DNA of 64,000 nucleotides. Source: Acidobacteriota bacterium (GTDB taxonomy: Bacteria; Acidobacteriota; Blastocatellia; RBC074). The notes beneath the pieces were generated by a model, which saw nothing but the letters and a program-made list of their open reading frames with translations, was not told the origin of the DNA and made no database searches. The stretch lies in the NCBI GenBank assembly GCA_016196035.1, contig JACPYM010000065.1:1-64000 (forward strand), read 5' to 3'. Position numbers and translations under genes: made by a program. Positions 55,695 through 55,980 of this stretch are shown here, one piece after another (the first letter of the stretch is position 1; every line of letters begins with the position of its first letter).

Positions 55695-55723
55695 TTGACT
55701 CACCTTATTTGGCCGAATATACT
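55695..55723 (+). promoter_or_regulatory. near-consensus sigma-70 promoter
   Basis: TTGACT at 55695-55700 and TATACT at 55718-55723 with a 17-nt spacer: five of six matches in each box and ideal spacing. There is no protein gene downstream on this strand; the promoter points at the predicted RNA ending in the terminator at 55940-55980. Confidence 0.75.
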
Positions 55724-55729
55724 CGCCGT

Positions 55730-55980
55730 GTCTTGATGGTATAAACATCCTGTTTATGCTGGTTTATTAAGAGATTCATCTTGATAAGCGCTGCTTCGTA
55801 ACTGACAAGCTATCATTTATTGATGACGGATTTGCCAATAGCCGACAGTTCTAAGTTGAAAAGCTGTCGGGGTTCTGTGTGCGGTTGGGTCGCACCGGAG
55901 CATGGCTAGTGACTTACCTCCCTCCTTCTCCTGCTTGATTCCCACGATGTGAAATTGTCGCATCGTGGGATTTTTTATTT
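55730..55980 (+). ncRNA. predicted free-standing small RNA, about 250 nt
   Basis: Bounded by a near-consensus promoter (55695-55723) and an intrinsic terminator (55940-55980). Hairpins visible in the RNA: ATAAACA/TGTTTAT (55741-55757), CCGACAG/CTGTCGG (55842-55870) and GTGCG/CGCAC (55879-55895). Just before the terminator is a C/U-rich stretch (55916-55933, ACCTCCCTCCTTCTCCTG) that is complementary to Shine-Dalgarno-type GGAGG and not in an obvious stem. It does not match the 6S, tmRNA, RNase P or SRP sequences I know. The flanking genes are both on the minus strand, so the RNA is not a leader of either. A 28-codon frame (55823-55909) lacks a ribosome binding site. Confidence 0.6.
55940..55980 (+). 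terminator. strong intrinsic terminator
   Basis: A perfect 10-bp stem (55940-55949 with 55961-55970), an 11-nt loop and then TTTTTTATTT. The T-run is present only on the plus strand, so it ends plus-strand transcription, namely the predicted small RNA. Confidence 0.9.

Follow-up and report, generated by a model that had tools for sequence, protein, structure and literature searches.

A candidate small RNA with an invariant anti-Shine-Dalgarno stretch in one family of Blastocatellia, and a complementary RNA beside a LysR-type gene

The locus and its conserved 3' module

The locus lies in a window of 64,000 nt, which is the whole stretch of acidobacterial DNA that was analysed. Two minus-strand genes border a gap that holds no gene on the plus strand, and nusB and the lumazine synthase (ribH) gene are located beyond the second of them. 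The features are as follows.

54726-55547, minus strand: gene for a conserved protein of 273 aa, function unassigned, bordering the gap
55548-56070: gap of 523 nt without a plus-strand gene, between the minus-strand genes whose near ends are 55547 and 56071
56071-57285, minus strand: gene for a VWA-domain protein of the acidobacterial TIGR03436 subfamily, bordering the gap
55695-55723, plus strand: promoter, -35 TTGACT (55695-55700), N17, -10 TATACT (55718-55723), 10 of 12 consensus matches
55731-55976, plus strand: probable small RNA of some 245 nt, its start inferred from the -10 box and its end from the T-run
55731-55913, plus strand: variable structured upstream body (predicted fold; z = -3.1 in the window)
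About 55738-55760, 55762-55789 and 55842-55870, plus strand: hairpins in the predicted fold of the upstream body
55914-55976, plus strand: conserved 3' module of 63 nt, one copy in each of the 11 family genomes
55914-55939, plus strand: invariant seed UUACCUCCCUCCUUCUCCUG with linker CUUGAU, anti-Shine-Dalgarno by conservation, predicted unpaired state and complementarity
55916-55933, plus strand: C/U stretch ACCTCCCTCCTTCTCCTG, within the invariant seed
55940-55976, plus strand: intrinsic terminator, 13-bp stem (55940-55952 with 55958-55970) followed by TTTTTT

The original prediction, made from this one sequence, had described a near-consensus promoter, three hairpins, a C/U-rich segment and an intrinsic terminator in a gap free of same-strand genes. 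The gap, the promoter, the C/U-rich segment and the terminator were all found where it had placed them. In the window, 2 promoter-like sites were observed against 2.5 expected from shuffled sequence, and 4 terminator-like sites against 3.3 expected. Because these counts are at chance level, reasoning from one sequence is insufficient by itself, and it is conservation that gives the arrangement its significance. An 82-aa open reading frame on the minus strand (55817-56065) was considered and rejected, since the spacing of the terminator arms differs among genomes by non-multiples of three and since the promoter and the T-run suit the plus strand alone.

We searched 58 genomes of the class at the DNA level. 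The 63-nt module was present in all 11 genomes of the family, once in each, and in none of the 47 others. A class search of 162 genomes, the family included, likewise left the small RNA absent from the 151 other genomes. When 84,980 species genomes were scanned for exact matches to a 27-nt core, nine contigs were recovered, all from metagenome-assembled genomes (MAGs) labelled Acidobacteria or Blastocatellia. Thus, where the original prediction had looked to Blastocatellia for conservation, the RNA is found in every family genome searched but is confined to that one family of the class. Within the module, TTACCTCCCTCCTTCTCCTGCTTGATTCCCACGAT (35 nt, 55914-55948) is identical in all 11 genomes, which represent six genera, and so are TCGTGGGA and TTTTT on the far side of the hairpin. 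This invariance holds despite only about 50% identity between the neighbouring VWA proteins, and the 180-240 nt upstream cannot be aligned between genera. Ten of the loci extend far enough upstream to be examined for a promoter, and in nine of them one of the form TTGAC-N17/18-TATACT precedes the module by 206-266 nt; the eleventh locus (L008), which has 223 nt upstream of the module, was left out of this count. An invariant core behind a conserved promoter favours a small RNA within the family. The evidence throughout is comparative and thermodynamic and comes mostly from MAGs.

The exception to the promoter count is the G007 locus (L011), where no TTGAC-N17/18-TATACT promoter was found within 400 nt upstream. 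Here the module lies in a 3' untranslated region, just past the stop codon of a gene for an SLT-domain lytic transglycosylase, a position that suggests relocation or a 3'-UTR origin. Because the module occurs in G007 without a stand-alone promoter, the unit under selection appears to be the 63-nt 3' module rather than the full transcript.

The terminator hairpin shows compensatory changes within the family, so that both outcomes by which the original prediction could have failed in related genomes, an unconserved sequence and a lack of such changes, are contradicted there. Eight of its 13 pairs never vary, two vary on one side and three are changed on both sides; one of the latter reads G-C, G-U or A-U, depending on the genome. 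In the true register of the stem pairing holds in 96.5% of the cells, and in no more than 52% once one partner is slid. For nine genomes a start could be placed, and in most of these the variable body has a more stable fold than its dinucleotide shuffles (z = -3.1, -2.7, -0.9, -0.3, -2.2, -3.1, -2.1, -1.0 and -3.75). The three hairpins of the original prediction are present in the predicted fold of this body, but their sequence is not conserved and they fall outside the unit under selection. The C/U stretch is predicted to be mostly open in the window's transcript (mean probability of being unpaired 0.76; 0.41-0.76 across genomes in the predicted transcript fold), and, in the isolated module, to be almost wholly open (0.94).

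We considered whether the segment might be a DNA element or a mere conserved terminator, with no functional RNA. Its terminator stem is palindromic and single-copy, and promoter and terminator score at chance in one sequence, as such a reading would allow. It is, however, hardly credible: the promoter is conserved in matching orientation in nine genomes, the strand that carries the T-run never changes, the stem covaries, and termination has no need of an invariant 20-nt C/U stretch. With its own promoter and intrinsic terminator, an intergenic position and no open reading frame on the same strand, the unit has the make-up of a small RNA gene, and the plus strand at 55731-55976 very probably encodes a small RNA of about 245 nt. 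An Hfq gene scored above the cut-off in 8 of the 11 genomes, the window's own included, so that the T6 terminator tail is accompanied by an Hfq gene in the same genome, as is usual for Hfq-dependent small RNAs.

Predicted pairing at mRNA starts

Candidate targets were sought by a pattern search for the complement of the seed, as a 15-mer with up to 2 mismatches and a 20-mer with up to 3, covering 1.19 Mb of genome G008 and selected loci. Most of the many matches fell within genes or antisense to them and were probably due to chance. With the 20-mer, 25 non-self matches were obtained across all genomes versus 12 for a reversed control, and 11 versus 1 in genus g5. The duplex energy over 857 start regions of G008 had a mean of -11.8 and a standard deviation of 4.4 kcal/mol, which served as the background; at -20 kcal/mol the motif matched 38 of these regions and composition-matched shuffles 30. 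Since pairing across the genome is no better than that of shuffles, the seed is not a general anti-Shine-Dalgarno sequence and most single matches are attributable to chance.

Complementarity at orthologous starts stands out from this background. A gene for a Crp/FNR-type regulator (cNMP-binding domain and Crp helix-turn-helix) was found through a match at its Shine-Dalgarno sequence in two genera, in G000 (the window's own genome) and G009; orthologues from G003, G006, G008 and G010, genomes outside the discovery, were then added. The Shine-Dalgarno region is complementary to the invariant stretch in all six genomes and three genera, four of the six belonging to one genus. Predicted duplexes over positions -30 to +15 reach -36.1 kcal/mol in G000, -29.6 in G008, -27.9 in G009, -25.2 in G003, -23.9 in G006 and -19.1 in G010. 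In G000, where the start region lies on contig C117 near 91991 on the minus strand, the site reads CAAGCAcGAGAAGGAGGGAG-CAG-ATG, and 19 of 20 positions are complementary, linker included. Because some targets were discovered via complementarity, their scores are inflated and the unbiased test is that in the genomes outside the discovery alone. In those four genomes, an equally strong average was reached by 4 of 3000 shuffled motifs and by none of 50,000 random four-gene sets.

A second candidate is a gene for a STAS-domain protein, with a complement at its Shine-Dalgarno sequence in G003 (-38.0 kcal/mol) and in the G000 homologue (-31.9 kcal/mol); the two proteins are 44% identical. Predicted pairing of the seed with orthologous starts therefore extends to three genera for Crp/FNR and to two for STAS. 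DUF4394 genes of G006, G009 and G010 carry a complementary site in the upstream leader; two of these genomes, G006 and G010, have a gene for an ECF-type sigma factor just upstream. For G002, G005 and G007 the searches used did not establish any target.

Other matches were set aside. The TolC-HlyD operon starts of G008 are not conserved, since the G000 HlyD gene retains merely AGAAGGAG and the match is absent from G003 and G007; the ssb start site in G003 is a match in a single genome and was not relied on. Two further loci are recorded as observations. In G001 alone, AATCAAGCAGGAGAAGGA, which complements the small RNA exactly over 18 nt, precedes a 34-aa open reading frame of single-membrane-span type, MTDQTLNLLGLCWLAVLVMFVGAVWLERKKPMQQ (L288, contig C84, 1500-1626). 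In G003 a gene for a 129-aa secreted-type protein (L291/L224, contig C18, about 45170 and 45598) has two complementary sites, one at the Shine-Dalgarno sequence (-26.9 kcal/mol) and one 16 nt past the stop codon (-39.7 kcal/mol).

These sites bear on how the invariance of the module is read. Predicted extended pairing at several sites accounts for the invariance of the linker; seed pairing does not fully explain that of the lower terminator stem. One reading is that an RNA-binding protein recognises the invariant stretch and stem, for titration or processing, with base-pairing secondary. Eight sequence-invariant stem pairs are beyond the need of a plain terminator, and the full 35 nt are invariant, as a protein site could demand. 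Complements at orthologous sites that include the linker, such as the 19 of 20 positions in G000, are unexpected for a protein site, and we consider this reading very improbable.

A complementary RNA beside a LysR-type gene

A second conserved intergenic candidate RNA, divergent from a LysR-type gene, was found in seven genomes of four genera.

L027, about 1585 to 1145, reverse strand: LysR-linked RNA, also at L025, L026, L028, L043, L298 and L290

In genus g5 and in G003 it has a promoter of the form TT[GA]GACA-N17/18-[AC]ATAAT, an intrinsic terminator pointing away from LysR and no conserved open reading frame; no Rfam match was obtained in the four g5 loci scanned. Its box GGAGAAGGAGGG is invariant in all seven genomes, and its invariant box GCAGGAGAAGGAGGG is an exact 15-nt complement of the small RNA. 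The copies in G001 and G004 were reached by the complement search, DNA-similarity searches having left them unconnected. They occupy the same position opposite the same LysR gene (79-81% identical) and keep GGAGAAGGAGGG intact amid changed surroundings; in G004 the orientation of promoter and terminator was checked. Over the seven genomes the predicted duplex with the small RNA has a mean energy of -37.2, versus -21.6 (sd 2.2) for shuffled motifs, and none of 1000 shuffles equalled it. We rejected the idea that this is a second RNA with the same seed, because its promoter and terminator lie on the opposite strand, which makes it complementary. From this complementarity, the LysR-linked RNA is most likely a pairing partner of the small RNA, whether sponge or target.

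The LysR-linked RNA also has a box TTGCTGGGATTGA, with the variant TTTGCTGGGGTGRG in G001 and G004, and a box TTTCATTATCTCTCTGCTATGG that occurs in g5 and G003 only. By prediction, most of its purine box is taken up by pairing within the molecule (probability of being unpaired about 0.2), so that pairing with the small RNA would require remodelling. In the reverse-strand RNA of L027 the purine box GCAGGAGA and the 3' box TCTCTCTGC are partly complementary, which suggests long-range pairing inside the molecule; the small RNA could disrupt it.

The strength of this match raises another reading, in which the two RNAs form a dedicated pair and the matches at mRNA starts are incidental, since any C/U-rich stretch will match Shine-Dalgarno sequences. 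No other complement is as strong or as widely conserved as the partner box, and start regions genome-wide are not enriched over shuffled motifs. Against it, 4 of the 11 genomes hold the invariant small RNA with the partner RNA not detected by the searches used (G000, G002, G005 and G007), the Crp/FNR starts in genomes outside the discovery exceed their controls, and STAS matches occur in two genera. We judge an exclusive pair to be unlikely, if clearly less so than a protein-binding site.

Proposed mechanism and relation to known systems

An open seed, complementarity at orthologous starts and Hfq in 8 of the 11 genomes are best fitted by a ribosome-blocking, trans-acting RNA. We therefore favour, with good confidence, a trans-acting small RNA whose seed pairs at selected mRNA starts and with the complementary LysR-linked RNA. 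In this model the conserved sigma-70-type promoter would give a small RNA of about 245 nt ending at the terminator at 55976. The working part would be the last 63 nt, which may also exist as a separate 3' fragment after processing; in it UUACCUCCCUCCUUCUCCUGCUUGAU, the unpaired C/U-rich stretch plus linker, sits before the terminator hairpin. The seed, probably with Hfq, would pair with the Shine-Dalgarno sequences of selected mRNAs and block 30S binding; the predicted targets include the Crp/FNR-type regulator and the STAS-domain protein. As judged from its sequence, the small RNA thus probably turns off protein synthesis at the matched genes. Pairing with the partner RNA, as sponge or target, would tie the small RNA to a LysR signal. 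Transcription, processing, use of Hfq, repression and sponging are steps that we infer. The fuller form of the model, a two-RNA circuit in which the anti-Shine-Dalgarno RNA represses Crp/FNR and STAS and the LysR-linked RNA with its perfectly matching purine box acts as the sponge, is more tentative, and we give it slightly less than an even chance.

Rfam 15 gave no match at the gathering score in the 64-kb window, and a permissive search reached at best 19.7 and 19.3 bits, where the cut-offs are 88 and 72. No description of this small RNA was found in the open-licence literature, judged by title and abstract. Annotated small RNAs are few in Acidobacteria, four distinct ones being listed in a survey of 2022 (PMC9029176). 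The RNA is likely a new family of a known kind, its mechanism resembling by analogy those of NfeR1/alpha-r14 and RoxS-RosA. Homology to either is unsupported by every test run.

NfeR1/alpha-r14 of rhizobia carries an ultraconserved, unpaired anti-Shine-Dalgarno motif of 9 nt, CCUCCUCCC, three times, once per hairpin; it represses at the ntrB translation start, and a LysR-type activator belongs to the circuit (PMC10746234). The RNA described here shares with it an ultraconserved unpaired C/U-rich anti-Shine-Dalgarno stretch in an otherwise variable molecule, the mRNA start of a regulator as a (here predicted) pairing site, and a linked LysR-type regulator. Unlike the alphaproteobacterial RNA, it has one stretch of 20-26 nt before the terminator and a different motif: CCUCCUCCC is absent from the transcript and the single stretch ACCUCCCUCCUUCUCCUG lies outside the hairpins. 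Because the three-hairpin layout is missing, we do not class it under alpha-r14. In Bacillus subtilis the C-rich RNA RoxS is countered by the sponge RosA, whose G-rich boxes are complementary to the seeds (PMC8216469). Here too a C-rich RNA faces a second RNA with complementary purine boxes, but the phylum differs, Rfam gives no sequence relation, sponging is a prediction, and the partner gene and a LysR gene are divergently oriented. The activity of SisA-D of Caulobacter is opposed by the non-coding sponge RNA CrfA (PMC12559287). Opposition by a (here predicted) non-coding RNA and the Hfq setting are shared; there are four sibling RNAs in Caulobacter and one here, again with no sequence relation in Rfam.

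The f3 family (L088-L091) came up as weak covariance-model hits (E about 1e-4 to 1e-3 per genome) among the 162 class genomes. These loci carry TTCTCCTG and an intrinsic terminator beside an M16 peptidase gene, and TTCTCCTGTGRTTTCCGCCCGGTGTG is conserved beside M16 peptidase genes in two genera, possibly as a short anti-Shine-Dalgarno RNA. They were rejected as homologues, having a different locus and a different hairpin, and are an unproven analogy.

Taken together, conservation, covariation, candidate targets at orthologous starts and a complementary second RNA support the original prediction that a new small RNA bearing an anti-Shine-Dalgarno stretch is encoded here. A probable small RNA is thus defined across the family, together with its exact seed, candidate targets from several genera and a second RNA as its candidate partner, which makes the circuit directly testable. 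It appears to represent an independent evolution of the design, known from rhizobia, Bacillus and Caulobacter, in which an anti-Shine-Dalgarno RNA is matched with an antagonist. If true, the two-RNA circuit would extend RNA regulatory networks beyond the commonly studied model phyla and would have evolved independently of its alphaproteobacterial and Firmicutes counterparts.
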